Shown here: one piece after another, positions 11,201 to 58,300 of the stretch
Layout: the number at the start of each line of letters is the position of its first letter
Position numbering within the stretch: the stretch's first letter is position 1
Source: Odontesthes bonariensis
Lineage: Eukaryota > Chordata > Actinopteri > Atheriniformes > Atherinopsidae
Direction: 5' to 3'
Length of the DNA: 64,000 bases
NCBI RefSeq assembly: GCF_027942865.1
Contig: NC_134511.1
Span: 1,377,001 to 1,441,000, forward strand
The notes under the pieces: model-generated
The model's database searches: none
The model's input: only the letters and a program-made list of their open reading frames with translations
Told to the model about the DNA's origin: nothing
Position numbers and translations under genes: made by a program

Positions 11201-14200
11201 ACTGTCCCCAGAAGGTAAACAAGGTGAATCTTTGTTTAGGATCGCATAGCTTTATTAATAATTAATATCGTAGGGATATAATTTACCTTCAGGGATTAAA
11301 AAACTATAACAAGACATTAAACTGGAATAGAGAAACTAATCTAAATGCTCTCCGTTTATAATAACATTTCAAATATTTGAAACATTTCATGAATAAACTT
11401 TTTTAAAGGACAAACAGTAACAACTACAGAACACGACTGAGCAGAACTTTCTCCATTTGTAAAGAAACACAAGATTAAAGTGATCAGGTCTCAATACTCT
11501 GACTTTTTACTAAAACATCGACGGTTTAAGTCCATTTTAAGGTCAGTCTGTGTTCAGTGTGTAATTCTATAAAACATCAACTCAACTCGTGTTGGGAAAC
11601 CCAAAGCCAAAGCCAAAGCCAAACCTAAACCTAAACCTAAACCCAAAGCCAAAGAAAGCCAAAGCCAAAGTGAAACATAAAGCTAAACCCAAAGCCAAAG
11701 CCAAAGCCAAACCTAAAGCTAAACCCAAAGCCAAAGCCAAAGTCAAACCTAAAGCCAAAGCCAAAGCCAAAGTTAAAGCCAAAGCCAAACCTAAAGCTAA
11801 CCCCAAAGCCGAAGCCAAAGCCAAACCTAAAGGTAAACCCAAAGCCAAAGCCAAAGCTAAACCCAAAACCAAAGCCAAAGCCAAACCTAAAGCTAAACCT
11901 AAAGCCAAATCCAAAGCCAAAGGCAAAGCCAAAGCTAAAGCCAAAGTTAAAGCCAAAGTTAAAGCCAAAGCCAAACCTAAAGCTAAACCCAAAGCCAAAG
12001 CCAAAGTCAAACCTAAAGCTAAACCTAAAGCCAAAGCCAAAGCCAAAGGCAAAGCCAAAGCTAAAGCCAAAGTTAAAGCCAAAGTTAAAGCCAAAGCCAA
12101 ACCTAAAGCTAAACCCAAAGCCAAAGCCAAAGTCAAACCTAAAGCCAAAGCCAAAGCTAAACCCAAAGCCAAAGCCAAAGCCAAAGCCAAACCTAAAGCT
12201 AAACCTAAAGCCAAAGCCAAAGCCAAAGCCAAAGCCAAAGCCAAAACCAAAGCTAAAGCTAAAGCTAAAGCCAAAGCCAAAGCCAAAGCCAAAGCCAAAG
12301 CCAAACCTAAAGCCAAAGCCAAAGCCAAAGCCAAAGCCAAAGCCAAAGCCAAAGCTAAAGCCAAAGTTAAAGCCAAAGTCAAGGCCAAAGCTAAAGATAA
12401 ACCCAAAGCCAAAGAAAGCCAAAGCCAAAGCCAAACCTAAAGATAAACCCAAAGCCAAAGCCAAAGTCAAACCTAAAGCCAAAGTCAAAGCCAAAGTTAA
12501 AGCCAAAGCCAAACCTAAAGCTAAAGCCAAAGCCAAAGCCAAAGCCAAAGCCAAAGCCAAACCTAAAGCTAAACCCAAAGCCAAAGCCAAACCTAAAGCT
12601 AAACCTAAAGCCAAAGCCAAAGCCAAAGCCAAAGCCAAACCTAAAGCTAAACCTAAAGCCAAAGCCAAAGCCAAAGCCAAAGCCAAAGCTAAAGCCAAAG
12701 CTAAAGCCAAAGTTAAAGCCAAAGTTAAAGCCAAAGCCAAACCTAAAGCTAAACCCAAAGCCAAAGCCAAAGTCAAACCTAAAGCCAAAGCCAAAGCCAA
12801 AGCTAAACCCAAAGCCAAAGCCAAAGCCAAACCTAAAGCTAAACCTAAAGCCAAAGCCAAAGCCAAAGCCAAAACCAAAGCTAAAGCCAAAGCCAAAGCC
12901 AAACCTAAAGCCAAAGCCAAAGCCAAAGCTAAAGCCAAAGCCAAAGCCAAAGCCAAAGCCAAAGCTAAAGCCAAAGCCAAAGCCAAAGTTAAAGCCAAAG
13001 TCAAGGCCAAAGCCAAACCTAAAGATAAACCCAAAGCCAAAGAAAGCCAAAGCCAAAGCCAAACCCAAAGCCAAAGCCAAAGCCAAAGCCAAAGCCAAAG
13101 CCAAAGCCAAAGCCAAACCCAAAGCCAAACCTAAAGCCAAAGCCAAAGCCAAAGCCAAACCTAAAGCCAAAGCCAAAGCCAAACCTAAAGCCAAAGCCAA
13201 AGCTAAAGCCAAACCTAAAGCCAAATCTAAAGCCAAAGCCAAACCTAAAGCCAAAGCCAAAGCCAAAGCCAAAGCCAAACCTAAAGCCAAAGCCAAAGCC
13301 AAAGCCAAAGCCAAACCTAAAGCCAAAGCCAAAGCTAAAGCCAAACCTAAAGATAAACCCAAACCCAAAGCCAAAGCCAAAGCCAAACCTAAAGATAAAC
13401 CCAAAGCCAAAGCCAAAGCCAAACCTAAAGCTAAAGCCAAAGCCAAACCTAAAGCCAAACCTAAAGCCAAACCTAAAGCCAAACCCAAAGCCAAACCCAA
13501 AGCCAAAGCCAAAGCCAAAGCCAAACCTAAAGCCAAACCTAAAGCCAAACCTAAAGCCAAACCTAAAGCCAAACCTAAAGCCAAACCTAAAGCCAAAGCC
13601 AAAGCCAAAGCCAAAGCCTAACCTAAAGCTAAACCCAAAGCCAAAGCCAAAGCCAAAGCCAAACCTAAAGCTAAACCCAAAGCCAAAGCCAAAGCTAAAC
13701 CCAAACCCAAAGCCAAAGCCAAACCTAAAGCTAAACCTAAAGCCAAAGCCAAAACCAAAGCTAAAGCCAAAGCCAAAGCCAAACCTAAAGCCAAAGCCAA
13801 AGCCAAAGCCAAAGCCAAAGCCAAAGCTAAAGCCAAAGCCAAAGCCAAAGCCAAAGCCAAAGCTAAAGCCAAAGCTAAAGCCAAAGTTAAAGTCAAGACC
13901 AAAGCCAAACCTAAAGATAACCCCAAAGCCAAAGCCAAAGTCAAACCTAAAGCCAAAGCCAAAGCCAAAGTTAAAGCCAAAGCCAAACCTAAAGCTAAAC
14001 CTAAAGCCAAAGCCAAAACCAAAGCTAAAGCCAAAGCCAAAGCCAAACCTAAAGCCAAAGCCAAAGCCAAAGCCAAAGCCAAAGCCAAAGCTAAAGCTAA
14101 AGCCAAAGCTAAAGCCAAAGTTAAAGCCAAAGTCAAACCTAAAGATAAACCCAAAGCCAAAGAAAGCCAAAGCCAAAGCCAAACCTAAAGATAAACCCAA

Positions 14201-17200
14201 AGCCAAAGCCAAAGTCAAACCTAAAGCCAAAGCCAAAGCCAAAGTTAAAGCCAAAGCCAAAGCCAAACCTAAAGCTAAAGCTAAAGCCAAAGCCAAAGCC
14301 AAACCTAAAGCTAAACCTAAAGCCAAAGCCAAACCCAAAGCCAAACCTAAAGCTAAACCTAAAGCCAAAGCCAAAGTCAAAGCCAAAGCTAAAGCCAAAG
14401 CTAAAGCCAAAGTTAAAGCCAAAGTTAAAGCCAAAGCCAAACCTAAAGCTAAACCCAACGCCAAAGGCAAAGTCAAACCTAAAGCCAAAGCCAAAGCCAA
14501 AGCTAAACCCAAAGCCAAAGCCAAAGCCAAACCTAAAGCTAAACCTAAACCTAAACCTAAAGCCAAAGCCAAAGCCAAAGCCAAAACCAAAGCTAAAGCC
14601 AAAGCCAAAGCCAAACCTAAAGCCAAAGCCAAAGCTAAAGCCAAAGCCAAAGCCAAAGCTAAAGCCAAAGCCAAAGCCAAAGCTAAACCCAAAGCCAAAG
14701 CCAAAGCCAAACCTAAAGCTAAACCTAAAGCCAAAGCCAAAGCCAAAGCCAAAGCCAAAGCCAAAACCAAAGCTAAAGCCAAAGCCAAAGTCAAACCTAA
14801 AGCCAAAGCCAAAGCCAAAGTTAAAGCCAAAGCCAAACCTAAAGCTAAAGCCAAAGCCAAAGCCAAAGCCAAACCTAAAGCTAAACCTAAAGCCAAAGCC
14901 AAACCCAAAGCCAAACCTAAAGCTAAACCTAAAGCCAAAGCCAAAGTCAAAGCCAAAGCTAAAGCCAAAGCTAAAGCCAAAGCTAAAGCCAAAGTTAAAG
15001 CCAAAGCCAAACCTAAAGCTAAACCCAACGCCAAAGGCAAAGTCAAACCTAAAGCCAAAGCCAAAGCCAAAGCTAAACCCAAAGCCAAAGCCAAAGCCAA
15101 ACCTAAAGCTAAACCTAAACCTAAACCTAAAGCCAAAGCCAAAGCCAAAGCCAAAGCCAAAGCCAAAACCAAAGCTAAAGCCAAAGCCAAAGCCAAAGCC
15201 AAAGCCAAAGCCAAAGCCAAACCTAAAGCCAAAGCCAAAGCTAAAGCCAAAGCCAAAGCTAAAGCCAAAGCCAAAGCCAAAGCTAAACCCAAAGCCAAAG
15301 CCAAAGCCAAACCTAAAGCTAAACCTAAAGCCAAAGCCAAAGCCAAAGCCAAAACCAAAGCTAAAGCTAAAGCTAAAGCCAAAGCCAAAGCCAAAGCCAA
15401 AGCCAAAGCCAAAGCCAAAGCCAAACCTAAAGCCAAAGCCAAAGCCAAAGCCAAAGCCAAAGCCAAACCTAAAGCTAAACCTAAAGCCAAAGCCAAAGCC
15501 AAAGCCAAAGCCAAAGCCAAAGCCAAAGCCAAAGCCAAAGCCAAAACCAAAGCTAAAGCTAAAGCTAAAGCCAAAGCCAAAGCCAAAGCTAAAGCCAAAG
15601 CCAAAGTTAAAGCCAAAGTCAAGGCCAAAGCCAAACCTAAAGATAAACCCAAAGCCAAAGAAAGCCAAACCCAAAGCCAAAGCCAAAGCCAAACCTAAAG
15701 CCAAAGCCAAAGCCAAAGCCAAACCTAAAGCCAAAGCCAAAGCCAAAGCCAAACCTAAAGCCAAAGCCAAAGTCAAACCTAAAGCCAAAGCCAAAGCCAA
15801 AGCCAAACCTAAAGCCAAAGCCAAAGCCAAAGCCAAAGCTAAAGCCAAAGCCAAAGCCAAAGCCAAAGCCAAAGCCAAAGCTAAAGCCAAAGCTAAAGCC
15901 AAAGTTAAAGCCAAAGTCAAGGCCAAAGCCAAACCTAAAGATAAACCCAAAGCCAAAGAAAGCCAAAGCCAAACCTAAAGATAAACCCAAAGCCAAAGCC
16001 AAAGTCAAACCTAAAGCCAAAGCCAAAGCCAAAGTTAAAGCCAAAGCCAAACCTAAAGCTAAAGCCAAAGCCAAAGCCAAAGCCAAAGCCAAACCTAAAG
16101 CTAAACCTAAACCTAAAGCCAAAGCCAAAGCCAAAGCCAAACCTAAAGCTAAACCTAAAGCCAAAACCAAAGCCAAAGCCAAAGCCAAAGCCAAAGCCAA
16201 AGCCAAAGCTAAAGCCAAAGTTAAAGCCAAAGTTAAAGCCAAAGCCAAACCTAAAGCTAAACCCAACGCCAAAGGCAAAGTCAAACCTAAAGCCAAAGCC
16301 AAAGCCAAAGCTAAACCCAAAGCCAAAGCCAAAGCCAAAGCCAAAGCCAAAGTCAAAGTCAAACCTAAAGCCAAAGCCAAAGCCAAAGCCAAAGCCAAAC
16401 CTAAAGCTAAACCTAAACCTAAACCTAAACCTAAAGCCAAAGCTAAAGCCAAAGCCAAAGTCAAACCTAAAGCCAAAGCCAAAGCCAAAGCCAAACCTAA
16501 AGCCAAAGCCAAAGCTAAAGCCAAACCTAAAGGCAAACCTAAAGCCAAAGCCAAACCTAAAGCCAAACCCAAAGCCAAAGCTAAAGCCAAACCTAAAGCC
16601 AAACCTAAAGCTAAAGCCAAAGCCAAAGCCAAAGCCAAACCTAAAGCTAAACCCAAAGCCAAAGCCAAAGCTAAACCTAAAGCCAAACCCAAAGCCAAAG
16701 CCAAAGCCAAAGCTAAAGCCAAACCCAACGCCAAAGCCAAAGCCAAAGCCAAAGCCAAAGCCAAAGCCAAAGCCAAAGCCAAAGCTAAAGCCAAACCCAA
16801 AGCCAAAGCCAAAGCCAAACCTAAAGCTAAACCTAAACCTAAACCTAAAGCCAAAGCCAAAGCCAAAGCCAAAGCCAAAACCAAAGCCAAAGCCAAAGCC
16901 AAAGCCAAAGCCAAAGCCAAAGCCAAAGCCAAAGCCAAAGCCAAACCTAAAGCCAAAGCCAAAGCTAAAGCCAAAGCCAAAGCTAAAGCCAAAGCCAAAG
17001 CCAAAGCTAAACCCAAAGCCAAAGCCAAAGCCAAACCTAAAGCTAAACCTAAAGCCAAAGCCAAAGCCAAAGCCAAAACCAAAGCTAAAGCTAAAGCTAA
17101 AGCCAAAGCCAAAGCCAAAGCCAAAGCCAAAGCCAAACCTAAAGCCAAAGCCAAAGCCAAAGCCAAAGCCAAAGCCAAAGCCAAAGCCAAACCTAAAGCT

Positions 17201-20200
17201 AAACCTAAAGCCAAAGCCAAAGCCAAAGCCAAAGCCAAAGCCAAAGCCAAAGCTAAAGCCAAAGCCAAAGTTAAAGCCAAAGTCAAGGCCAAAGCCAAAC
17301 CTAAAGATAAACCCAAAGCCAAAGAAAGCCAAACCCAAAGCCAAAGCCAAAGCCAAACCTAAAGCCAAAGCCAAAGCCAAAGCCAAACCTAAAGCCAAAG
17401 CCAAAGCCAAAGCCAAACCTAAAGCCAAAGCCAAAGTCAAACCTAAAGCCAAAGCCAAAGCCAAACCTAAAGCCAAAGCCAAAGCCAAAGCTAAAGCCAA
17501 AGCCAAAGCCAAAGCCAAAGCCAAAGCTAAAGCCAAAGCTAAAGCCAAAGTTAAAGCCAAAGTCAAGGCCAAAGCCAAACCTAAAGATAAACCCAAAGCC
17601 AAAGAAAGCCAAAGCCAAACCTAAAGATAAACCCAAAGCCAAAGCCAAAGTCAAACCTAAAGCCAAAGCCAAAGCCAAAGTTAAAGCCAAAGCCAAACCT
17701 AAAGCTAAAGCCAAAGCCAAAGCCAAAGCCAAAGCCAAACCTAAAGCTAAACCTAAACCTAAAGCCAAAGCCAAAGCCAAAGCCAAACCTAAAGCTAAAC
17801 CTAAAGCCAAAACCAAAGCCAAAGCCAAAGCCAAAGCCAAAGCCAAAGCTAAAGCCAAAGTTAAAGCCAAAGTTAAAGCCAAAGCCAAACCTAAAGCTAA
17901 ACCCAACGCCAAAGGCAAAGTCAAACCTAAAGCCAAAGCCAAAGCCAAAGCTAAACCCAAAGCCAAAGCCAAAGCCAAAGCCAAAGCCAAAGTCAAAGTC
18001 AAACCTAAAGCCAAAGCCAAAGCCAAAGCCAAAGCCAAACCTAAAGCTAAACCTAAACCTAAACCTAAAGCCAAAGCTAAAGCCAAAGCCAAAGTCAAAC
18101 CTAAAGCCAAAGCCAAAGCCAAAGCCAAACCTAAAGCCAAAGCCAAAGCTAAAGCCAAACCTAAAGGCAAACCTAAAGCCAAAGCCAAACCTAAAGCCAA
18201 ACCCAAAGCCAAAGCTAAAGCCAAACCTAAAGCCAAACCTAAAGCTAAAGCCAAAGCCAAAGCCAAAGCCAAACCTAAAGCTAAACCCAAAGCCAAAGCC
18301 AAAGCTAAACCTAAAGCCAAACCCAAAGCCAAAGCCAAAGCCAAAGCTAAAGCCAAACCCAACGCCAAAGCCAAAGCCAAAGCCAAAGCCAAAGCCAAAG
18401 CCAAAGCCAAAGCTAAAGCCAAACCTAAAGCCAAAGCCAAAGCCAAAGCCAAAGCCAAACCTAAACCCAAAGCCAAAGAAAGCCAAAGCCAAAGCCAAAG
18501 CCAAAGCCAAACCTAAACCCAAAGCCAAAGAAAGCCAAAGCCAAAGCCAAAGCCAAACCTAAACCCAAACCCAAACCCAAACCCAAACCCAAAGCCAAAG
18601 CCAAACCTAAAGCTAAAGCCAAAGCCAAAGCCAAACCTAAACCCAAAGCCAAAGCTAAAGCCAAACCTAAAGCCAAACCTAAACCCAAAGCCAAAGCCAA
18701 ACCTAAAGCCAAACCTAAACCCAAAGCCAAAGCCAAAGTCAAACCTAAAGCCAAAGCCAAACCTAAACCCAAAGCCAAAGCCAAACCTAAAGCCAAACCT
18801 AAACCCAAAGCCAAAGCCAAACCTAAAGCCAAAGCCAAACCTAAAGCCAAAGCCAAACCTAAACCCAAAGCCAAAGCCAAAGCTAAACCTAAAGCCAAAG
18901 CCAAAGCCAAACCTAAAGCCAAAGCCAAAGCCAAACCTAAAGCCAAACCTAAAGCCAAACCTAAAGCCAAACCTAAAGCCAAACCCAAAGCCAAACCCAA
19001 AGCCAAAACCAAAGCCAAAGCCAAAGCTAAAGCTAAAGCCAAAGCCAAAGCTAAAGCTAAAGCTAAAGCCAAACCTAAAGCCAAACCTAAACCCAAAGCC
19101 AAAGCCAAACCTAAACCCAAAGCCAAAGCCAAAGCCAAAGCCAAACCTAAAGCCAAACCTAAACCTAAACCTAAACCCAAAGCCAAAGCCAAACCTAAAC
19201 CTAAACCCAAAGCCAAAGCCAAACCTAAACCCAAAGCCAAAGCCAAAGCCAAACCTAAACCCAAAGCCAAAGCCAAAGCCAAACCTAAACCCAAAGCCAA
19301 AGCCAAACCTAAACCCAAAGCCAAAGCCAAAGCCAAAGCCAAAGCCAAACTTAAAGCCAAAGCTAAACCCAAACCCAAAGCCAAAGCCAAAGCCAAAGCC
19401 AAAGCCAAAGCCAAACCTAAAGCCAAACCTAAAGCCAAACCCAAAGCCAAAGCCAAAGCCAAAGCCAAACCTAAAGCCAAATCCAAACCCAAAGCCAAAG
19501 CCAAACCTAAAGCCAAACCTAAAGCCAAAGCCAAACCCAAAGCCAAAGCCAAACCTAAACCCAAAGCCAAAGCCAAACCTAAAGCCAAACCTAAAGCTAA
19601 AGCCAAAGCCAAAGCCAAAGCCAAAGCTAAAGCTAAAGCTAAAGCCAATCACACGTCCCTGTGAGTAGATCATCAGCTGTTAGTTCGAGGACCCGGTTTA
19701 ACGCCAGTTTAACCTTAGTTTAAAGTCACTTTAACCTTAGTTTAAAGTCAGTTGCGTTTCTGTAATGTTAGGAGGACAAATGTGAGTTTTTGTAATGTAA
19801 TTTCAGATGAAACCAGATTCTGTTAGAGAAACCAGAACCAGCCTGCTGAGGAGGAGCAGATCTCTGCCAGTCGCACAAACACCGTTCGAACTTTCGTCTT
19901 TTTCACAGGTAATTCACACACAAGGCAACACGTCCTCCGATGCAGGTGATTCCTTAAAGGTGGTTTTTCTTTGCCCCCCCAGGAGGCCTTTCACATTTAT
20001 TCTGCTTCAACCCTGAAATACGACTGATGAGGATTTAGGGCTGGGCGAGTTAACTATTTATGTTGACTCATTAATTATTTTATGTCAATAAATATTTTAT
20101 CGTGTATTAACGCATATATAATTTATTTAAAAAAAAAGTATTTTGTAAAAGTCCGTTGCTCACAGGCTTTTATTTTGTAAAAGTCTGTCGCTCACAGGCT

Positions 20201-20866
20201 TTTGTTTTTTAAAGGTCTGCTGCTTACAGGCTTTTATTTTGTAAAAGTGTGTTGCTCACAGGCTTTTATTTTGTAAAAGTCTGTTGTTCACTGGCTTTTA
20301 TTTTGTAAATGTCTGCTGCTCACAGGCTTTTATTTTGTAAATGTCTGCTGCTCACAGGCTTTTATTTTGTAAATGTCTGCTGCTCACAGGCTTTCATTAT
20401 TATTTATATTAAATAGGATTAAATAGGATTAAATAGGATTAAATAGGATTAAATAGGATTAAATGGGATTAAATAGGATTAAATGGGATTAAATGTGAGG
20501 AGGTTTTACTGATAAATCTTCCAGAATCGGACACTTTGCTGAGCCTGATGGTTTTAAACAAACCTTCTTTGGATTATTTCTTTATTCTTCTGACTTTTTC
20601 TGCCATAAATCCGATTCAAAGTGTTTTTATTTGCACTCACGTTGGGCTGTTTGTTATATTTCCTCTCTGTGAGGAAGCTGAGCTCAGCATCATTCTTCCT
20701 CAGTCTGATGGCGTCTCTTCCTCCTCAGGACCAACACACCACCTCCTCTAAGCTCCGCCTGCAGGTGGCGCCGGCTCTGGACACCTTTAGGGACGCCGAG
20801 GCCCGTCAGCAGGCACTCAGGGCTCAACCGGTGGACCCCAGGAGGGGGCGGCGGGGTCCGGACTGA
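2280..20866 (+). CDS. cfap77: cilia and flagella associated protein 77 (six coding exons)
   Basis: CFAP77 is a microtubule inner protein of ciliary doublets, linked in Tetrahymena to the outer junction. Coding exons by splice sites and phase are 2280-2342, 6216-6318, 10425-10650, 10727-10826, 19807-19908 and 20729-20866, a 732-nt CDS for 243 aa. Recognisable family stretches are [16 protein letters not shown] in exon 1, [21 protein letters not shown] in pieces across exon 2, [19 protein letters not shown] in exon 3, [18 protein letters not shown] in exon 4 and [14 protein letters not shown] in the last exon. The start at 2280 follows a non-coding exon ending at 2101. Exon 5 (34 aa, basic) is the least certain because family memory does not help there. 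Introns carry an L1 insertion, a hAT remnant, two minisatellites and the 8-kb hexamer array. AATAAA at 20879-20884 probably ends the transcript. Synteny with barhl1, DDX31 and AK8 supports the call. Confidence 0.87.
2388..3035 (-). mobile_element. 5'-truncated L1-type LINE with 17-bp target duplication
   Basis: The body is 2405-3018 and is flanked by identical 17-bp copies of GGGTCCAGTTGGACTTT at 2388-2404 and 3019-3035. The plus strand begins with a T-rich tract, which is the poly(A) tail of a minus-strand insertion. The minus-strand frame at 2636-2818 ([20 protein letters not shown]...) resembles the C-terminus of fish L1 ORF2, where an IL.KFYIHK block is common. The insertion lies in CFAP77 intron 1. 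The intact target duplication suggests it is fairly young. Confidence 0.8.
3100..4525 (-). mobile_element. hAT-like transposon remnant with BED-finger fragment
   Basis: Its ends carry GGGCAACGATTAAAAT (near 3112) and, reversed, CTGGGCGAGTTAACTCG (near 4500-4520), typical of hAT ends in fish. The same ends recur at 20035 and 38290. A minus-strand frame from 3543 to 3238 encodes the N-terminus of a transposase with a BED zinc finger: CKHC, then H-x4-H in KYHLKAKH. The rest of the transposase is lost. A hairpin minisatellite occupies the region upstream of that ATG. Located in CFAP77 intron 1. Confidence 0.65.
3592..4447. repeat. minisatellite, about 31-bp unit, hairpin core
   Basis: About 27 copies of a unit containing GACTTTTACAAAATAAAAGC plus CTGTGAGCAA. 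Each unit can fold because CTTTTA and TAAAAG are complementary around a CAAAA loop. Copies differ by AGA/AAA and a few spacer bases. The same unit, reversed, forms the array at 20140-20395, inside another copy of the same hAT element. Confidence 0.9.
4526..5790. other. CFAP77 intron 1, repeat-derived, no gene seen
   Basis: No coding exon is recognisable. The segment 4770-5310 holds paired GC-rich motifs (GCGCGGGACAGAATTTACAGTCCCGC in pieces near 4778, and GCGGGACTGCAG near 5268) that look like a decayed DNA transposon. The class is not assignable by eye. Confidence 0.4.
5800..6080 (-). pseudogene. LINE reverse transcriptase fragment (L2-like)
   Basis: The minus strand encodes [14 protein letters not shown], then [19 protein letters not shown] in one frame, and [11 protein letters not shown] in an adjacent frame. 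These are the conserved reverse transcriptase blocks B ([12 protein letters not shown]) and C (YADD catalytic box) of L2/CR1-type fish LINEs. A frameshift separates the two blocks, so the fragment is dead. It ends about 130 bp upstream of CFAP77 exon 2. Confidence 0.75.
6353..6944. repeat. minisatellite, about 53-58-bp unit, 11 copies
   Basis: Each unit contains GCTAATGCTAGTTAGC followed by CTCAAACATTAGCAC and CTGCAGCTTTAAGAC. Unit length varies because CAGCTG and CACTG junction versions alternate. The core has complementary GCTAA/TTAGC arms. Located in CFAP77 intron 2, starting about 35 bp after the exon 2 splice donor. Confidence 0.9.
6950..7880. repeat. dispersed repeat segment with LINE tail, CFAP77 intron 2
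   Basis: About 6965-7060 looks like a reversed LINE 3' tail: reversed it reads GTGCTTTAGAAATAAAACTG, a common fish retrotransposon end. From about 7370 to 7660 the AACCCCATGAACGTGACAGA and GGGACGGATCCCAGAC blocks look like a dispersed fish repeat, the latter recurring at about 7794. No gene is seen. Confidence 0.45.
7880..9300. repeat. GCTAGC-containing minisatellite, two unit types
   Basis: From 7880 to about 8330 the unit is 30 bp, built from GCTAGCTCTGGCTCTGTGG plus CCTCTGTGGGT. From 8330 to 9300 it changes to shorter units of the type GCTGCTAGCTCTCTGGACTG with optional CTGTGGCTTTG inserts. Nearly every unit contains the palindrome GCTAGC. The 30-bp units give long open frames ([10 protein letters not shown] repeats), which are translations of the repeat only. 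CFAP77 intron 2. Confidence 0.92.
9300..10001. other. CFAP77 intron 2, no gene seen
   Basis: No exon or RNA gene is recognised. A short direct repeat (GTTCAGGTCAGAACCGGGTC twice, about 9623-9664) and a doubled TATTCTCCACGTGCACA at about 9475-9508 are present. Confidence 0.5.
10002..10258 (-). mobile_element. possible solo LTR
   Basis: The segment starts TGTGGGAG and ends CTCCACA, matching the TG...CA inverted ends of LTRs. It contains GTTTATTTGTG near its left end, which on the minus strand would be a polyadenylation signal. No clear target duplication is visible (cactt on the left, atgct on the right), so this is a weak call. The next 90 bp, to about 10350, resemble a LINE 3' tail (GCGCTATATGAATAAAGATG). 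Confidence 0.35.
10850..11215. repeat. minisatellite with GGGGACAG/CTGTCCCC hairpin
   Basis: About five copies of a unit of roughly 75 bp. Units contain CATAATGTATGGTAAACACA and GGGGACAGATTCTGAACTG followed by TCCCC. GGGGACAG and CTGTCCCC form a perfect 8-bp stem around ATTCTGAA. The array begins about 25 bp after the splice donor of CFAP77 exon 4. Confidence 0.85.
11602..19647. repeat. 8-kb hexanucleotide (AAAGCC)n array with higher-order repeats
   Basis: Over 1,300 hexamers, mainly AAAGCC with variants AAACCT, AAAGCT, AAACCC, AAAGTC, AAAGTT and AAAGAT. The plus strand is almost free of T outside the variants. An occasional AAAGAAAGCC adds 4 bp and shifts the phase (near 11650, 12411, 13040, 14160, 15660, 15957, 17321, 17605, 18478 and 18530). 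A rare AACGCCAAAGGC marker occurs near 14458, 15028, 16266 and 17906, showing duplicated blocks of 570 and 1640 bp. Long frames on both strands (Lys-Ala/Lys-Pro on plus; Leu-Ala and Phe-Gly on minus) are translations of the hexamer. It fills most of CFAP77 intron 4. Confidence 0.97.
19650..20034. other. CFAP77 exon 5 and flanking unique sequence
   Basis: Unique DNA between the hexamer array and the next hAT fragment. It holds CFAP77 coding exon 5 (19807-19908), with acceptor TTTCAG|ATG and donor CACAG|GTAATT. A short duplicated motif (TTAACCTTAGTTTAAAGTCA, twice at about 19710-19750) precedes it. Confidence 0.6.
20035..20400 (+). mobile_element. hAT-like element fragment with minisatellite
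   Basis: Begins AGGGCTGGGCGAGTTAACT, matching the end of the element at 3100-4525 in reverse orientation, then runs into the same TTTTGTAAAAGTCTGTTGCT / CACAGGCTTTTA units at about 20140-20395 (eight or so copies). No transposase part remains. CFAP77 intron 5. Confidence 0.65.
20405..20500. repeat. 10-bp tandem repeat (ATTAAATAGG)
   Basis: About nine head-to-tail copies of GATTAAATAG with two G-variant units, directly abutting the hAT fragment. CFAP77 intron 5. Confidence 0.9.
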
Positions 20867-22714: not shown

Positions 22715-28855
<6,141 letters not shown>

Positions 28856-34200: not shown

Positions 34201-37200
34201 TAGAGCTAAAGCTAAAGTTAGAGCTAGAGTTAAAGTTAAAGTTAGAGCTAAAGTTAGAGGTAGAGTTAAAGTTAGAGCTAAAGTTAGAGGTAGTTAGAGT
34301 TAAAGTTAGAGCTAAAGTTAGAGTTAGAGCTAAAGTTAGAGTTAGAGTTAAAGTTAGAGTTAGAGCTAAAGTTAGAGTTAGAGCTAAAGTTAGAGTTAGA
34401 GCTAAAGTTAGAGTTAGAGCTAAAGTTAGAGTTAGAGCTAAAGTTAGAGTTAGAGGTAGAGTTAGAGCTAAAGGTAACGTTAGAGTTAAAGTTAGAGTTA
34501 GAGCTAAAGTTAGAGTTAGAGGTAGAGTTAGAGCTAAAGTTAGAGTTAGAGGTAGAGTTAGAGCTAAAGTTAAAGTTAGAGCTAAAGTTAGAGTTAAAGT
34601 TAGAGCTAAAGTTAGAGTTAAAGTTAGAGCTAAAGTTAGAGTTAGAGCTAAAGTTAGTTAGAGTTAAAGTTAGAGCTAAAGTCAGAGTTAGAGCTAAAGG
34701 TAACGTTAGAGTTAAAGTTAGAGTTAGAGCTAAAGTTAGAGTTAGAGGTAGAGTTAGAGCTAAAGTTAGAGCTAAAGTTAGAGCTAAAGCTAAAGGTAGA
34801 GTTAGAGTAAGAGTTAAAGTTAGAGCTAAAGTCAGAGTTAGAGCTAAAGGTAACGTTAGAGTTAAAGCTAAAGTTAACGTTAGAGTTAAAGTTAGAGCAA
34901 AAGTCAGAGTTAGAGCTAAAGGTAACGTTAGAGTTAAAGCTAAAGTTAACGTTAGAGTTAAAGTTAGAGCAAAAGTCAGAGTTAGAGCTAAAGGTAGCGT
35001 TAGAGTTAAAGTTAGAGCTAAAGTTAGAGTTAGAGTTAAAGTTAGAGCTAAAGTTAGAGCTAAAGCTAAAGGTAGAGTTAGAGTAAGAGTTAAAGTTAGA
35101 GCTAAAGTCAGAGTTAGAGCTAAAGGTAACGTTAGAGTTAAAGCTAAAGTTAACGTTAGAGTTAAAGTTAGAGCAAAAGTCAGAGTTAGAGCTAAAGGTA
35201 GCGTTAGAGTTAGCGTTAAACAAAGTCTCAAACTCTGAAACCACTAAAAACACTAAGAAGTCCTGGCGTCAGGTTTTCCTGAAGTCACCCGAAGGTTTTG
35301 TGAAAGCTATTAAAGACTGAGGATTTCCTTTTAATCTCCTGTGAAACCTCAAAATGCTAAAAAAAAAAAAAACCTGATTAAAAGCCTGGAACCACCTCAC
35401 AGATCACGTTGGTCTCTGAAGGATGGAGGCAACCTACCTTACTGTGGTACTTGCCCCGCCCCTTGTAGGCGTCGTCCATCATGAGACTGGATAAAATCTT
35501 CTGTAACTTCATCTCTGATAGGCTGAAACACAAGAAACCAGCCCCGTCAGTGTCACTACATGCTACAGGTGGTGCTACAGGTGGTGCTACAGGTGGTGCT
35601 ACAGGAGGTGCTACAGGTGGAGCTACAGGAGGTGCTACAGGTGGTGCTACAGGTGGAGCTACAGGAGGAGCTACAGGAGGTGCTACAGGTGGGGCTAGAG
35701 GAGGTGCTACAGGTGGTGCTACAGGAGGTGTTACAGGTGGTGCTCCAGGTGGTGCTACAGGTGGTGTTACAGGAGGTGCTACAGGAGGTGCTACAGGTGG
35801 AGCTACAGGAGGTGCTACAGGTGGAGCTACAGGAGGAGCTACAGGAGGTGCTACAGGTGGGGCTAGAGGAGGTGCTACAGGAGGTGCTACAGGTGGTGCT
35901 ACAGGAGGTGTTACAGGTGGTGCTCCAGGTGGTGCTACAAGTGGTGTTACAGGTGGTGCTACAGGTGGTGTTACAAGTGGTGCTACAGGTGGTGCTACAG
36001 GTGGAGCTACAGGAGGCGCTACAGGAGGCGCTACAGGTGGTGCTACAGGAGGTGCTACAGGAGGTGCTACAGTTACAGCAGGTGCTACAGGTGGTGCTAC
36101 AGGTGGAGCTACAGGAGGTGCTACAGCTATAGGTGGTGCTACAGGAGGTGCTACAGGTGGTGCTACAGGAGGTGCTACAGGAGGTGCTACAGGAGGTGCT
36201 ACAGGTGGAGCTACAGGAGGAGCTACAGGAGGTGCTACAGGTGGGGCTAGAGGAGGTGCTACAGGAGGTGCTACAGGTGGTGCTACAGGAGGTGTTACAG
36301 GTGGTGCTACAGGAGGTGTTACAGGTGGTGCTCCAGGTGGTGCTACAAGTGGTGCTACAGGAGGTGTTACAGGTGGTGCTACAGGTGGTGCTACAGTTAC
36401 AGCAGGTGCTACAGGTGGTGCTACAGGTGGAGCTACAGGAGGTGCTACAGCTATAGGTGGTGCTACAGGAGGTGCTACAGGTGGTGCTACAGCTACAGGT
36501 GGTGCTACAGGAGGTGCTACAGGTGGTGCTACAGGTGGTGCTACAGCTACAGGAGGTGCTACAGGAGGTGCTACAGGAGGTGCTACAGGTGGTGCTACAG
36601 GTGGAGCTACAGGAGGTGCTACAGGTGGAGCTACAGGAGGAGCTACAGGAGGTGCTACAGGTGGGGCTACAGGAGGTGCTACAGGAGGTGCTACAGGTGG
36701 TGCTACAGGAGGTGTTACAGGTGGTGCTCCAGGTGGTGCTACAAGTGGTGCTACAGGAGGTGTTACAGGTGGTGCTACAGGTGGTGTTACAAGTGGTGCT
36801 ACAGGAGGTGCTACAGGTGGTGCTACAGGTGGAGCTACAGGAGGCGCTACAGGTGGTGCTACAGGAGGCGCTACAGGTGGTGCTACAGGAGGTGCTACAG
36901 GAGGTGCTACAGGTGGTGCTACAGGAGGTGCTACAGGAGGTGCTACAGTTACAGCAGGTGCTACAGGAGGTGCTACAGCTACAGGTGGTGCTACAGGTGG
37001 AGCTACAGGAGGTGCTACAGCTACAGGAGGTGCTACAGGAGGTGCTACAGGAGGTGCTACAGGTGGTGCTACAGGTGGAGCTACAGGTGGAGCTACAGGT
37101 GGAGCCAGCTGTCGGTCAACACACCTGATGTTGTGATTGGCCAGCTCGCTGATGAAGGCCATCTCAGCTGGGGTGAGGAAGAGGAGGCTGCTTCCTCGTT

Positions 37201-40200
37201 CTCCAATTCGAGCCGTCCGGCCGACGCGGTGAACGTATTCAGCTGTTGACGTGGGAGGAGTGAACTGCAAACACAAAGTTTACCTGTTACCTGAAGCTCG
37301 TCTGGACCAGGAGAACCCAGGAGAAGTCAGGAAAACCCAGGAGAACCCAGGAAAACCCAGGAAAACCCAGGAAAACCCAGGAGAACCCAGGAGAACCCAG
37401 GAGAACCCAGGAAAACCATGGAGAACCATGGAGAACCCAGGAGAACCCAGGAAAACCCAGGAAAACCCAGGAGAACCCAGGAAAACCCAGGAAAACCCAG
37501 GAAAACCGAGGAGAACCCAGGAGAACCCAGGAAAACCAAGGAGAACCATGGAGAACCCAGGAGAACCCAGGAGAACCCAGGAGAAGTCAGGTAAACCCAG
37601 GAGAACCCAGGAGAACCCAGGAAAACCCAGGAAAACCCAGGAGAACCATGGAGAACCATGGAGAACCCAGGAGAATCCAGGAGAATCCAGGAAAACCCAG
37701 GAGAACCCAGGAAAACCCAGGAGAACCCATGATAACCCAGGAGAACCCAGGAGAACCAAGGAAAACCCAGGAAAACCCAGGAGAACCCAGGAGAACCCAG
37801 GAGAACCCAGGAGAACCCAGGAAAACCCAGGAGAACCAAGGAGAACCAAGGAAACCCCAGGAGAACCCAGGAGAAACAAGGAAAACCCAGGAGAACCCAG
37901 GAAAACCCAGTAGAACCCAGGACAACCCAGGAAAACCCAGGAAAACCGAGGAGAACCCAGGAGAACCCAGGAAAACCCAGTAGAACCCAGGACAACCCAG
38001 GAAAACCCAGGAAAACCGAGGAGAACCCAGGAAAACCCAGGAGAACCCAGGAGAACCCAGGAGAACCAAGGAGAAACAAGGAAAACCCAGGAGAACTTAA
38101 AAGTGTGTTTGCACAACAAGTGTTATGGCACTTTCATTCATATGGCAGCACATTTAAAATAAAGCTAAATGCTAAAAGCTATACACTACTCTTGGATTCA
38201 TTTTTGGATTCTGTGTACAAATGCGATTAATCGTGATTAATCAGGGAAATCATGTGATTAATTAGATTAAACATTTTAATCGTTGCCCAACCCTAGTTTA
38301 AACATACATGTAGCATTATCATACATTTAACTATAAAACGTACACCAGCTCAGAGTAAAACCCTTCAGGAAGGAGCTCTGGTAGCTGATATTTACCTGAA
38401 TTATCCAGGTGACCTGAGGAAGGTCCAAGCCTCTGGCTGCTACATCCTGAAACAAACATCACACACGAACCTTTAGACAACGACACCGTACAGCAGCGAG
38501 TATTCGTGAAGGTGGAGAATGTTTCTCTGGAACAATAATCAGGCCCAGTTCCTGGGATTATGTTCGCGATCAGAAGAGAAACTCCCGAACTAATTACAGA
38601 CCTGTTCAAGTCCTGTTGAGGTTTGACAAAGTTTTATTATTATCTGAACTAAGACAGTCTGACTGCGTGGTGTCTCATCAGGTGCGAATGTTTAGATGAA
38701 CAGAGTTTAACTCACTGACCGTGCACAGCAGGACTCCAGAATGAGACGCCGCAAACCGCTGAAAGACCTCGGAGCGCTCCTGGTGAAGGAAACAAACAGC
38801 CTGAGAACACGAGTCGCTGAGCGGCAGGTAAACGGCGGCGGGGGGGGGGCGTTACCTCCTGCTTCATGTTGCCGTGTAAACGCAGAAAGCTGAGCTTGTG
38901 ATTGGCCGACGGCCCGGAGAGGACGGAGGTGAGCAGCGAGTGGAGGAACTCGGTGACCTCGCAGCTCGAGACGAAGACGATGAGTTTGTTGTTCTGAGAA
39001 AACTGAAACAACAACGTGTCATATTTACCCGTTTAGGTTCAAACTTTTTCCCAGCTCACGTTGGGTGGAATCAGGGTTCGTTTTACTGATCTTCACCTTG
39101 CATTTGTCCAGGATGAAAGCAGCCAAGCAGACCAGTCTGATCTTACTGGGAACAACCACCACAAACTGCTTCAGAGCCTCTGGGACGGCAAAGCTCTCCG
39201 ATTGGCCGGCTGCTTTGGGGTCGGAGGTTACTGTTGTGGTGAGGTCAGAGGAGGGAGCGCCAGAAACATGGATGCTGACCGGGTCCTTTAAACAGACGTC
39301 CGCTAATCGGCTCACACCTGAAACAAAAGGTGAAAGTCACAGTGTTCAACTGGTTGTTTTAGTGACAAAACTCACAGATGACAAAGAAACACTGGCTGTA
39401 ACTACGGCAACACTGCCTGTAACTACGGCAACACTGCCTGTAACACTACAGAAACGCTGCCTGTAACTACAGAAACACTGCCTGTAACTACGGGAACACT
39501 GCCTGTAACTACGGAAACACTGCCTGTAACTACGGAAACACTGCCTGTAACACTACAGAAACACTGCCTGTAACTACGGAAACACTGCCTGTAACACTAC
39601 AGAAACACTGCCTGTAACTACGGAAACACTGCCTGTAACACTACAGAAACACTGCCTGTAACTACGGAAACACTGCCTGTAACTACGGAAACACTGCCTG
39701 TAACTACGGAAACACTGCCTGTAACTACGGAAACACTGCCTGTAACTACGGAAACACTGCCTGTAACTACGGAAACACTGCCTGTAAAACTACGGAAACA
39801 CTGCCTGTAACACTACGGAAACACTGCCTGTAACACTACGGAAACACTGCCTGTAACTACGGAAACACTGCCTGTAACACTACGGAAACACTGCCTGTAA
39901 CTACGGAAACACTGCCTGTAACTACGGAAACACTGCCTGTAACTACGGAAACACTGCCTGTAACACTACGGAAACACTGCCTGTAACTACGGAAACACTG
40001 CCTGTAACACTACGGAAACACTGCCTGTAACTACGGAAACACTGCCTGTAACTACGGAAACACTGCCTGTAACTACGGAAACACTGCCTGTAACTACGGA
40101 AACGCTGCCTGTAACTACGGCAACGCTGCCTGTAACACTACAGAAACACTGCCTGTAACTACGGCAACACTGCCTGTAACTACGGCAACGCTGCCTGTAA

Positions 40201-43200: not shown

Positions 43201-46200
43201 CTGGAAGGTCTGGAAGGTCTGCTGTGCGAGCTGATGGCAGCAGGAGAGGGAATCAGTCAGAGAGCAGACAGGTGAAGCTACAAACAGTTTTAAATGTAGA
43301 GAACAGAACGAACCTCTCTGGTGGGGACGATGACGAGCGCCAGAGGCCCGTCGGCCCTGCTGACCTTGGGCTGAATGCACTGAAGACTCTGAACCAGCGG
43401 GACGGCGTAGCACAGAGTCTTACCTGCAGACAAAGAGCAACCCTCAATAAGACCACACCATCTATGAAACTCATTGCTTTTTTATTTAGCTACTTTAACT
43501 GTGTAGCTGTAAAGATGCCGGTTAGGAGTTAAACTCATAATACGGCAGCCATTTTAGAATAGAAGTACTTTATTCATCCCAGCTGGGAAATTACTTTGCA
43601 GTTGCAGCATACAGACATAAATAAAATTAAATGGAATATAAAAATGCTATAAAATGTAAAAATACCGTAAAATATAAATGCAACTTAAAAGCAGAACTAG
43701 CAGAGATTCAGTTCGGAATGTATATAAATATGTAGATATGTATATGTAAAATATGTACAGCAAAATGTGCAACAAGTGCAGTTGTGCCAAATTGAAATTA
43801 CCATAATGAGCATAATTAGTGCAGAACAATGATTAACTGTTATTATACAGAGTGATGGCATGTGGCAGGAAAGATTTCCTGTATTTGGCTGGGTAATTTG
43901 CTCCCAAAGGCGGCTCCTGATGTGAAAAATGCCAGAGTTGGACACTGAAAAGCCAACAATAGGAAATGGGAAACTAATGTTTAAAGCCCGATTTATACTT
44001 CAGCCCATTAAGATGGGACCGCCATAACAGCTGCCACCGCCATGAGCATTTAAACTTGCTACGTTGGGTACTGACGACAGTCCACAGTTAGGAAGCGGTA
44101 AAGCTAACATATTAGCTGTCCTCTGGTGTTTCCTGTTTAGAGCAGCAATGGCTGCCCACAAAAAGTGTAAGTCAGCCTTAACCTGTAACCCACTGAGACA
44201 AACACTAACTCACTTGGTAATTAGCATGCTGTGGCTAGTACCTAGCATGTCGAGGATAGCAGCCATGTCTGTTAGCTAGTGTTCATAATACAGTTTTTGG
44301 CCAGATTAGTTTCAGAGTGAATTTATTTTGTATATTTGTTTAAGGCTTGAGCGTAAATGATTTTAGTTGCATGCGTCTGTTTAAAACAGAGTGAGCTATG
44401 GCAGCAGCTAACATCCACTGCTAGGCCTGTCAGCTAACCCTGACTGTTAGGTAGCCGCTAGCAAGCTAAAGCTTGTGGCTGCTAACAGCTGCTCACTTGC
44501 TCGACCAGTCAGCAGATAGTGCATTTCTAATATTGCTGAAAGCGACCGAAAGTGAGCACGTTGCCACTCAGAAACCTTCACCTGCATGCAGCTGCGCATG
44601 CTAGCAGCTGTTGGAGCGGCAGGATAACTTGACTGACCCAAGCTTTTCATTTCATCAGCTTCTGACAGCACATGTACATCAGCTGTACTGCCTCACCCAG
44701 CAAACAGTCGGTTAACACATAAAAAGGTCATACGGACGCGTTCACAAGGTTAAAAACTAGACTTTTTAGCAGACAAGAACTTTATCAGCTTTCACACATT
44801 ACAGTAAAATATCTACCAGGTGTCATGTTTACATCTGTGGGCTAATCTGACCAGCACAGTGGGTTGTGAACCTCTTCATACTGGCTGGTAGCCACAACAT
44901 GCTACAGACCAGCCAAGACGTGCCAATTAACAGCTGAGTCAAAGGCTGTGTTCCAAACCACATACTTCTTCTATCATTTACATACTGCAGTATGTAGTAT
45001 GGAAGTATGTAGTATGCAGTATGAAGTATGTAAGTATGTAGTATGTAGTATGCAGTATGAAGTATGTAAGTATGTAGTATGCAGTATCTAGTATGCAGTA
45101 TGTAGTATGCAGTATGTAGTATGCAGTATGTAGTATGTAAGTATGCAGTATGTAAGTATGCAGTATGAAGTATGGAAGTATGTAGTGTGCAGTATGTAGT
45201 ATATAGTATGCAGTATGAAGTATGTAGTATGCAGTATGTAAGTATGCAGTATGAAGTATGGAAGTATGTAGTATGCAGTATGTAAGTATGTAGTATGTAG
45301 TATATAGTATGCAGTATGAAGTATGTAGTATGCAGTATGTAAGTATGCAATATGTAGAATGCAGTATGAAGTATGGAAGTATGTAGTATGCAGTATGTAA
45401 GTATGTAGTATGTAAGTATGCAGTATGTAGTATGTAAGTATGCAGTATGTAAGTATGCAGTATGGAAGTATGTAGTATGTAAGTATGCAGTATGTAAGTA
45501 TGCAGTATGCAGTATGTAGTATGCAGTATGGAAGTATGCAGTATGGAAGTATGTAGTATGTAAGTATGCAGTATGTAAGTATGCAGTATGTAAGTATGCA
45601 GTATGCAGTATGCAGTATGTAGTATGCAGTATGTAGTATGTAAGTATACAGTATGCAGTATGTAGTATGAAAGTATGTAGTATGTAGTTTGCAGTATGCA
45701 GTATGTAGTATGCAGTATGCAGTATGCAGTATGTAGTATGAAAGTATGTAGTATGAAAGTATGTAGTATGAAAGTATGTAGTATGAAAGTATGTAGTATG
45801 AAAGTATGTAGTATGTAGTTTGCAGTATGCAGTATGCAGTATGCAGTAGGCAGTATGCAGTATGCAGTATTTGCGTCCTAATCTGTGGCTGTTAGACACA
45901 TGAGTTGTGGGCCAATCAGGAGCCGCCTGTGGACAGAAAACAGCCTCCACTAGCTTCTCATTGGTCCTAATTTTGACCCATATCGCCCACCGTTGTATCG
46001 GCCGTCGCAGGTGTGCTGATGTCTCACCTGAACCCGTCTGAGATCGAACGACGGCGTCTTGTCCTGACAGGAGAGCTGGGATGGTCTGCTTCTGAACACT
46101 GGACACACACATTAACAGAACCAGTGTGTGTGTGTGTGAACTAGTTTTCCCACATTGTGGGGACCACACACTCCTGCCGACCGTATGAAGGTCCCCAGAT

Positions 46201-49200
46201 TTCCCAGAGATTCAGTTCAGGTGTTCAGACGAGACACTACAGGTGAATAGGGTAATATTCTAAAATAATAGATATCACCATGAAACTTCCTCAGTTGATT
46301 ACTTATACAAGTATGAAAAAAAATGTATTACAAGTTTTAGAAATTCAAATACAAGCTCAATAAAATACAATAAAAGATCTTTTTCTTTGAAAGTTGTGGT
46401 GTTTTGGGGCATTTTCGGAGCGTCAGAGTCCACCACGTGATGCGTCTGAGCGAATCACGTTAGCAGAAACGAACAGCAGCCAATGAGATTTCGTCATTAG
46501 CTATAAATCCGCCTTTAGACATTCACGATTGGTTACTGACAGAAAGGAAGTGCCGTTATTTGGGTTTCATATCTTTGTGCAAGAGATTCAGAGCTTTCCA
46601 ACGACACTGGTCATGACAGACTTCAGTAAACAGACGAAGCTCGGCATGGCGCGTTGGAATGCTAACTTTTTGGTCAAATCGGGCGAAACATACTGCAGCG
46701 AATAAACAAAATGTTATAAAATAAACATTTTAATTTATGTTTTCAACATTTTCTTTATAGCAGGTTGAAAGAACACATGTTGAAGGAGTAGACTGGCCCA
46801 AAATCTCAAAATTGACCCCTGCATGAAGAATCACTGTTTTTGCCGGCCGTGTCTCGCCTTAAAGGGGAACTCCGGGGCATTTGAAGCGCGTTTCCATTGC
46901 TAGAGGTTGTCAAATACTGACAGTAGGACACAGAGAGGTGCAAATCTGCGCTCCCTGTGTGGAGATTGCGCGGTTCGCACACCCTGTCATGCGAGGCTAA
47001 TACGTGGTGGCTAAGGGGCAAGCGCTAACCCTTCCACGTAAAACAACAACTTGCACACTGCAGAAACGTCACACCACTTTATAAACCATCCGACAATAAA
47101 GTCACAAGCCTTACCATCAAAACCATATGCATGGTTCTCACATTACTGGCATGGGGACGTTACAAAACAACTTTATAAACAGCATGTAACTCACCGGCTG
47201 GTTGTAGGCTCGCGCATGTGAAAGCCCAAAAGAGTCGATGGACGATAATCCCATATACAAAACAATTATCTTCTCTAGAAAAACTGCGTTCAAGTATTTA
47301 AAACATTACAACAATATTACTGGGCATGTATTGTTATAATGTTTTAAATACTTGAACGCAGTTTTTCTAGAGAAAATAATTGTTTTGTATATGGGATTAT
47401 CGTCCATCGACTCTTTTGGGCTTTCACATGCGCGAGCCTAAAACCAGCCGGTGAGTTACATGCTGTTTATAAAGTTGTTTTGTAACGTCCCCATGCCAGT
47501 AATGTGAGAACCATGCATATGGTTTTGATGGTAAGGCTTGTGACTTTATTGTCGGATGGTTTATAAAGTGGTGTGACGTTTCTGCAGTGTGCAAGTTGTT
47601 GTTTTACGTGGAAGGGTTAGCACTTGCCCCTTAGCCACCACGTATTAGCCTCGCATGACACGCTGTGCGAACAGCGCGATCTCCACACAGGGAGCACAGA
47701 TTTGCACCTGTCTGTGTCCTACTGTCAGTATTTGACAACCTCTAGCAATGGAAACGCGCTTCAAATGCCCCGGAGTTCCCCTTTAAAGCTTCAGAAAGTG
47801 ATGAATTGTATTTGGATTACTGAGTGTGAGTCCCCATAACACCAGTCAGCTGGCTGTGTGTGTGTGTGTGTTTGTGTGGACTGACCTGGTCAGAGTGGAA
47901 ACGTTTAGGACTTTGTTCAGTGTCGCCACCTGGTGGAGAGAAACAGCCAATCAGAACGCAGAACCCTCAAAGCTTCCGTTTGCTTTCTGCGTTTCTCACA
48001 ATAAATCAGTCGATTTTAAATAAAAAGAACTGTGAGACAGTGTGTTACCAGGTGGGGGTGCAGGTGGAGGTCCGAGAACGAGTCCGAGGTGAAAATCTTC
48101 TCCTTCACCTGGGAGACGAGTGGCCTGAAGGAGGGAAAGACACACCAGTCTGAATATGAGTCTGAACAGGATCAATATGAGTCTGAACAGGATCAATATG
48201 ACTCTGAACAGGATCAATATGACTCTGAACAGGATCAATATGACTCTGAACAGGATCAATATGACTCTGAACAGAATCAATATGACTCTGAACAGGATCA
48301 ATATGACTCTGAACAGGATCAATATGACTCTGAACAGGATCAATATGACTCTGAACAGGATCAATATGACTCTGAACAGGATCAATATGAGTCTGAACAG
48401 AATCAATATGAGTCTGAACAGGATCAATATGAGTCTGAACAGGATCAATATGACTGAACAGGATCAATATGACTCTGAACAGGATCAATATGAGTCTGAA
48501 CAGAATCAATATGACTCTGAACAGGATCAATATGACTCTGAACAGGATCAATATGACTCTGAACAGGATCAATATGACTCTGAACAGGATCAATATGAGT
48601 CTGAACAGGATCAATATGACTCTGAAAAGGATCAATATGACTCTGAACAGGATCAATATGAGTCTGAACAGAATCAATATGAGTCTGAACAGGATCAACA
48701 TGAGTCTGAACAGGATCAATATGACTCTGAACAGGATCAATATGACTCTGAACAGGATCAATATGAGTCTGAACAGGATCAATATGACTCTGAACAGGAT
48801 CAATATGACTCTGAACAGGATCAATATGAGTCTGAACAGAATCAATATGAGTCTGAACAGAATCAATATGAGTCTGAACAGGATCAATATGACTCTGAAA
48901 AGGATCAATATGACTCTGAACAGGATCAATATGAGTCTGAACAGAATCAATATGACTCTGAACAGGATCAATATGAGTCTGAACAGGATCAATATGACTC
49001 TGAACAGGATCAATATGAGTCTGAACAGAATCAATATGAGTCTGAACAGAATCAATATGAGTCTGAACAGGATCAATATGACTGAACAGGATCAATATGA
49101 CTCTGAACAGGATCAATATGAGTCTGAACAGAATCAATATGACTCTGAACAGGATCAATATGACTCTGAACAGGATCAATATGACTCTGAACAGGATCAA

Positions 49201-55304: not shown

Positions 55305-58300
55305 TCAGTCAGTGGTCAGCTGGCTCTCCAGAACCTCAAACACGGTATGAGGGTTCTGATCCGCATCGACGTGAACAGCATCTGGAAACACAGACTGAAC
55401 ACAAACGTTTGTTTGTTTATGAAGTTTCCAGCCACAACAAAGTGCACGTACGTGTGCATGTGTGTGCACGTGCGTGTGCATGTGCACCTGCAGGGCAGCA
55501 GACCGGACCCGGTACTGTTCCAGTCTCCGCTTCACGGTGTCGGTTCTGTCCTCGGGTCTGGTCTGCAGTCTGTTCTGGACCTCGGAGCTCGGAGCGGGTC
55601 GGGTCAGGGCGTGGAACCTGCAGAACCAAAAACAGGAGTGTGCACGTACGTGCACGAGCTGGCACAAATCTGGTTGTTGTTCTGGAAGAACCAGCGCACT
55701 GACCTCTGCCCGCTGACCGGGTCGGTCGCTCTGAGACCGGTTCTGTCCAGGCAGACGTCATCCGTCACCTCCAGGAAGAAAACCCTGGAGGAGGAAAAGT
55801 TCTGATGAGGTTCAGAGAACCAGCAGAACCCTGAAGGTTACAGAAGGAAACCAGCAGAACCCTGAAGGTTCCAGCAGAGAACCAGCAGAACCCTGAAGGT
55901 TCCAGCAGGAAACCAGCAGAACCCTGAAGGTTCCAGAAGGAAACCAGCAGAACCCTGAAGGTTCCAGCAGAGAACCAGCAGAACCCTGAAGGTTCCAGCA
56001 GGAAACCAGCAGAACCCTGAAGGTTCCAGAAGGAAACCAGCAGAACCTTGAAGGTTCCAGCAGGAAACCAGCAGAACCCTGAAGGTTCTGTCGGTTCTGG
56101 AGTTTCCATCATGAGACCAGAAGGAGACCAGCAGAACCCTGAAGGTTCCAGCAGAGAACCAGCAGAACCCTGAAGGTTCCAGCAGGAAACCAGCAGAACC
56201 CTGAAGGTTCGTTCGGTTCTGGAGTTTCCATCATTTTATCCAGGTTTGATCGGCATGTTTCTCTCTGGAGTTGTGGCTGCAGCGAGCTGCATATTAGCAG
56301 CAGCACCGTCCTTAGAGATCTAAATCATGATTTTAGCCATTCGTCTGTCTCCACGGTCTCGGAGCGCACGCTCTCTTCCAAGAGCCTGACGCGCTAAGGC
56401 ATCCAAAAGTAGCAAGTCAGCCGCTGGTACCAGCTGGGTTCTGTGGTACCTGTTGGGTTCTAAGGTACCTGTTGGGTTCTGTGTTGGGTTCTATGGTACC
56501 TGTTGGGTCCTGTGTTGGGTTATATGATACCTGTTGGGTTCTGTGTTGGGTTCTATGGTACCTGTTGGGTTCTAAGGTACCTGTTGGGTTCTATGGTACC
56601 TGTTGGGTCCTGTGTTGGGTTCTATGGTACCTGTTGGGTTCTGTGTTGGGTTCTATGGTAGCTGTTGGGTTCTATGGTACCTGTTGGGTCCTGTGTTGGG
56701 TTCCATGGTACCTGTTGGGTTCTGTGTTGGGTTCTAAGGTACCTGTTGGGTTCTGTGTTGGGTTCTATGGTACCTGTTGGGTTCTGTGTTGGGTTCTAAG
56801 GTACCTGTTGGGTCCTGTGTTGGGTTCTATGGTACCTGTTGGGTTCTGTGTTGGGTTCTAAGGTACCTGTTGGGTTCTGTGTTGGGTTCTAAGGTACCTG
56901 TTGGGTTCTGTGTTGGGTTCTAAGGTACCTGTTGGGTTCTGTGTTGGGTTCTATGCTACCTGTTGGGTTCTGTGTTGGGTTCTATGCTACGTGTTGGGTT
57001 CTGTGTTGGGTTCTATGGTACCTGTTGGGTCCTGTGTTGGGTTCTATGGTACCTGTTGGGTTCTGTGTTGGGTTCTAAGGTACCTGTTGGGTTCTGTGTT
57101 GGGTTCTATGGTACCTGTTTGGTTCTATGTTGGGTTCTAAGGTACCTGTTGGGTTCTGTGTTGGGTTCTATGCTACCTGTTGGGTTCTGTGTTGGGTTCT
57201 ATGGTACCTGTTGGGTTCTGTGTTGGGTTCTATGCTACCTGTTGGGTTCTGTGTTGGGTTCTATGGTACCTGTTGGGTTCTGTGTTGGGTTCTAAGGTAC
57301 CTGTTGGGTTCTGTGTTGGGTTCTATGCTACCTGTTGGGTTCTGTGTTGGGTTCTATGGTACCTGTTGGGTTCTGTGTTGGGTTCTATGCTACCTGTTGG
57401 GTTCTGTGTTGGGTTCTATGCTACCTGTTGGGTTCTAAGGTACCTGTTGGGCTGGTGCTGGGACTCCAGCAGGCTCTGGGCCTGCTGCAGGTCGCAGGGG
57501 AACCCGTGCAGGATCCAACCTCTGCAGCTGCAGTCCACTCGGCTCAGACGCTCCTCCAGAACCTGCAGCACCAGGGAGTCTGGAACTGAACCGACAGGCC
57601 GATTGGTGATCAATAATCCAGGATCAATGATCACAACCGGAACACAGAACAGAACCCCGCGGACCACAGCGGCACAGTGCGCTCACTCTGAGCTCACCTG
57701 CTCGTCCATCGTCCAGGTACGGCTGGATCTCTGCTCCCGGGTCAGAACCGTCGGCTGCTGCAGACCTCAGCAGCTGACCACAGCACACTGAAGGAACACA
57801 TAGAACACTTTACGAGTTAAACAGAAACAACAGAACACTTTACGAGTTAAACAGAAACAACAGAACCAAAGTTCTGGTCCTGTTCGGATCAGATGTGCGT
57901 TCTGTTTGGACTCTAAGCCAACGTTACTGCTCCTGATCAGAGTGGTCTGATCCATAGATATGTATAGAATCATAGATATGTGTAGAATCATAGATATGTA
58001 TAGAATCATAGATATGTGTAGAACCATAGATATGTGTAGAATCATAGATGTGTATAGAATCATAGATATGTGTAGAATCATAGATGTGTATAGAATCATA
58101 GATATGTGTAGAATCATAGATGTGTATAGAATCATAGATATGTGTAGAATCATAGATGTGTATAGAATCATAGATATGTGTAGAATCATAGATGTGTATA
58201 GAATCATAGATATGTATAGAATCATAGATAAGTATAGAATTATAGATATGTGTAGAATCATAGATATGTATAGAATCATAGATTTGTATAGAATCATAGA

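Follow-up and report, generated by a model that had tools for sequence, protein, structure and literature searches.

We found that J11, a minus-strand intron of a DDX31-like gene of Odontesthes bonariensis, runs without an in-phase stop for 3 x 534 bp, and that its openness is accounted for by the 12-bp minisatellite that fills most of it. J11 is very probably a conventional spliceosomal intron of DDX31 that was expanded by the minisatellite and is spliced out. The stretch of DNA analysed here (the window, 64,000 nucleotides) contained the gene model, the intron and the arrays used for comparison. The features of J11 and its exons are listed in Table 1.

Table 1. Features of intron J11 and the adjoining exons (window positions)
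Feature	Position	Strand	Description
Upstream exon	37125..37264	-	carries the motif presumed to be helicase motif VI
DDX31 intron J11	35523..37124	-	1602 bp, phase 2, no in-phase stop
12-bp minisatellite array	35561..37102	-	about 128 units by length; VAPP in exon phase
3' flank outside the array	35523..35560	-	CTGAC branch-point match 24 nt from intron end and T-rich tract
Downstream exon	35438..35522	-	from the gene model

Host gene and intron anatomy

The gene model was guided by a provisional human DDX31 portion, and 13 of the 15 planned junctions were kept, each with its top-scoring site pair. The first planned junction was left out since conserved residues are lost with the best intron for it, 48030..46092 (1939 bp, 1 modulo 3); a small exon was probably missed there. 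The last one was left out when its anchor peptide was not found. The spliced protein was identical to this provisional human portion at 324 of 509 positions. Pfam search placed PF00270 (DEAD), PF00271 (Helicase_C) and PF13959 (SPB4-like C-terminal) in it, all above cut-off, a combination which we take to mark the DDX31 / Dbp7 helicase family; the name helicase motif VI for the motif in the upstream exon is likewise our assumption. The nearest solved structures were has1/HAS1 (best PDB match) and DDX18.

J11 begins with the donor CAG|GTGTGT and ends with the acceptor TTTCAG|C (GT-AG). A 12-mer array of the GTAGCNCCWCCT type makes up 1542 of its bases and flank the other 60, and no AG lies between the CTGAC match and the intron end. 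The sequence-only reading had described a stop-free intron of 1602 bp joining both exons in one minus-strand frame, and this was confirmed: read-through in exon phase met 0 stops and entered the downstream exon in its own frame, the stop-to-stop frame being 35378..37279 (633 codons). With its GT-AG ends, a length divisible by three (3n) and no in-phase stop, J11 belongs to the stop-free 3n introns. This kind of intron is already known: PMC4484396 mentions it, with reference to Jaillon et al. 2008. J11 resembles the introns described there in length class and in the lack of an in-phase stop, and differs in that its openness is supplied by a minisatellite unit. A comparable case was not seen in the open-licence PubMed Central literature, as judged from titles and abstract openings among the matches listed; PMC4039745 concerns C. 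elegans minisatellites and splicing.

When the open frame of J11 was compared with Pfam, 0 families matched; searches for RNA families gave 0 at gathering score and the tRNA search gave 0 genes.

The 12-bp array and the origin of the open frame

The consensus unit reads GTA GCA CCA CCT (V-A-P-P) in exon phase. Tandem Repeats Finder counted 133.0 copies with 83% match between copies, while the mismatch to one fixed consensus was 7.3%. The array was parsed as 1539 bases consisting of 256 hexamers and one CCT, with no frame-breaking indels, and 12 of the 256 hexamers were half-unit joins (GCTGTA 9, ACTGTA 3). A cyclic aligner reported twelve events (six of length 6, three of 4 and three of 2); the events of length 4 and 2, scored as non-multiples of three, are in our reading 6-bp steps split by the aligner. 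The earlier proposal that allele lengths change in 12-bp steps was corrected, since the half-unit hexamers show 6-bp steps as well.

The array was open in two of the three minus frames. In exon phase the consensus unit has 36 possible single substitutions, and 0 of them lead to a stop; in each of the other minus frames 1 of 36 does, and one of these frames already has TAG. Among 13 codons of the array that were checked, only GGA is one step from a stop. J11 is open because its consensus unit uses GTN, GCN and CCN codons only. No such codon can become a stop by a single substitution, and this property is passed on as copies are homogenised. The 3n length follows from array growth in multiples of six together with flanks that chance to fit. 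We propose that the minisatellite grew inside the DDX31 intron as units of 6 and 12 bp were gained and lost, that J11 would be removed by normal splicing, and that the lack of stops is a by-product of the repeat unit.

Of random 12-mers of window composition, 79% were open in a given frame (20,000 draws). When arrays were simulated with independent random substitutions, 300 runs at 5% divergence left the exon frame open in 82% of cases and 300 runs at 10% in 45%. At 17%, where the 83% match is read as divergence, 13% of 300 runs stayed open, which counts against the ordinary reading. Among the 13 resolved introns, five had 3n length (J1, J6, J9, J10 and J11), about the expected third, and five carried an array; J8 (76 bp) was stop-free and not 3n. 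J11 was the sole one both 3n and stop-free, and this also counts against the ordinary reading.

A cut test was then performed, in which each of the 17 arrays of at least 500 bp was cut at random and placed in the J11 flanks, with 600 trials per strand. The J11 array on its own strand gave an open 3n intron in 0.252 of 600 trials, within a range of 0 to 36% of 600 trials over all array-strands; the mean over the 34 array-strands (17 arrays, both strands) was about 5%, and about 4% without the J11 array. The open 3n state of J11 is thus not far beyond chance for such an array.

The J11 minisatellite is one of many in the window, where 21 arrays merged from the repeat table span 36,096 of 64,000 bases. 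An 8-kb array of the 6-bp unit AAAGCC (11597-19648) shows 10% mismatch to a single consensus, with ten indel events of 2 bp. Stop-free frames longer than that of J11 occur in other arrays of the window; in the array at 24488-28651, with a 64-bp (32-bp) unit, each of the three plus-strand frames stays open over 1343 to 1387 codons. Two arrays in opposite orientation (3591-4452 and 20139-20398) share one 32-bp unit (31 of 32 consensus bases agree), and an 18-bp unit array at 57953-61714 is followed by a short reverse-complement array at 62525-62613 (17 of 18 consensus bases). The high tandem-repeat load is like that of the Atlantic cod genome as given in PMC5241972; the cod repeats are mostly of short units, whereas the window has long-unit arrays too.

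Splicing or retention of J11

In the exitron-like explanation, the array would be coding sequence that some mRNAs keep, and a VAPP linker of 534 residues would thereby follow the second RecA domain; we consider this extremely improbable. According to PMC4484396, an exitron lies inside a protein-coding exon and is alternatively spliced, has no in-frame stop, and is often but not necessarily of 3n length, which is over-represented. J11 resembles exitrons so described in having no stop, 3n length, GT-AG ends, a branch-point match and a fairly high GC content (0.57, the second highest of 13 introns), and its length, openness and GC speak for the exitron-like explanation. That source also describes exitron splice sites as typically weak, judged against retained introns. 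Splice matrices were built here from the other 12 introns of the gene, and although 12 sites make a crude matrix and the comparison of PMC4484396 is with retained introns, the J11 sites were not weak next to the others: the donor scored 6.6 bits (3.8-9.3 in the other 12 introns) and the acceptor 7.6 bits (2.5-14.0). The splice sites of J11 are about as strong as is usual in this gene, which differs from exitrons and argues against the exitron-like explanation.

The spliced protein at the junction was compared with its relatives. Alignments to HAS1 chains cross the J11 junction with neither gap nor insert, which speaks against a coding segment at this position, and they end 5 or 6 residues past it; the provisional human DDX31 portion aligned gap-free across the junction and over more than 20 residues after it. 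The two MSS116 alignments listed (u61087 and u61085), which were shown up to a point near the junction, have a one-residue insertion just before it, a result which counts against the ordinary reading.

Unit variation bears on the same question, since a subset of exitrons shows a prevalence of synonymous changes indicating coding origin, according to PMC4484396. With the J11 array set in 12-mer register, third codon positions held 97 of 125 minor copies, a skew as in a coding array that favours the exitron-like explanation. The third-position copies were, on the other hand, confined to two positions: two of the four fourfold-degenerate positions were invariant (0/132 and 0/120) and four non-degenerate positions varied. 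Among distinct variant types, the 12 possible silent changes were represented by 4 and the 24 possible non-silent ones by 5 (Fisher p 0.44). One mod-3 class took up 0.75 of the mismatches, within the 0.50-0.78 of five other arrays with a period divisible by three, two of which sit in J6 and J12, introns with in-phase stops. Freedom from frame-breaking indels was also found in 5 of 12 other arrays. Unit variation in the J11 array is without a clear coding signature, and selection on the VAPP frame, considered as a candidate, is unneeded given the variant types, mod-3 classes and indels of this and the other arrays. The sequence-only reading had remarked that a stop-free 12-mer makes openness natural with no need for selection; the 0/36 stop substitutions, the 25% of the cut test and the variation pattern agree with it.

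A further alternative is that J11 is spliced, yet transcripts that occasionally retain it evade nonsense-mediated decay owing to its 3n length and lack of stops, and so yield rare aberrant proteins of no benefit. This follows from the open frame and from the statement in PMC4484396 that selection acts against human 3n introns without stops. The splice sites inside the array, which would mostly shift the frame, stand against it, and we hold it to be very unlikely. The scan for AG covered J11 from after its first 60 bases to just before its last 3. With the native donor, 116 of 117 AG acceptors shift the frame; with the native acceptor, 0 of 128 GT donors keep it; and of 4294 AG-GT pairs inside the intron, spaced by 30 to 600 nt, 128 keep it. 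Acceptor-like TAG sites occur within the array, the best reaching 6.3 bits against 7.6 for the native site. Since internal sites mostly break the frame, whole retention is therefore nearly the sole frame-keeping outcome. The earlier claim that any array allele keeps the frame stands for whole retention with 6- and 12-bp steps and fails for partial use, where the 116 of 117 AG and all 128 GT sites break it.

Retention of J11 received no support from the sequence features tested, and removal of J11 as a conventional spliceosomal intron is the reading that we prefer. That some of the DDX31 mRNA keeps the array, so that an elastin-like VAPP linker of polymorphic length sits between the helicase core and the C-terminal extension, is hardly to be expected.

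In conclusion, growth of a minisatellite can readily yield a long stop-free 3n intron. Such introns might confound the prediction of exitrons and retained introns, and likewise gene finders applied to repeat-rich genomes. Were retention real, it would offer a rapid way to form new protein linkers of variable length.
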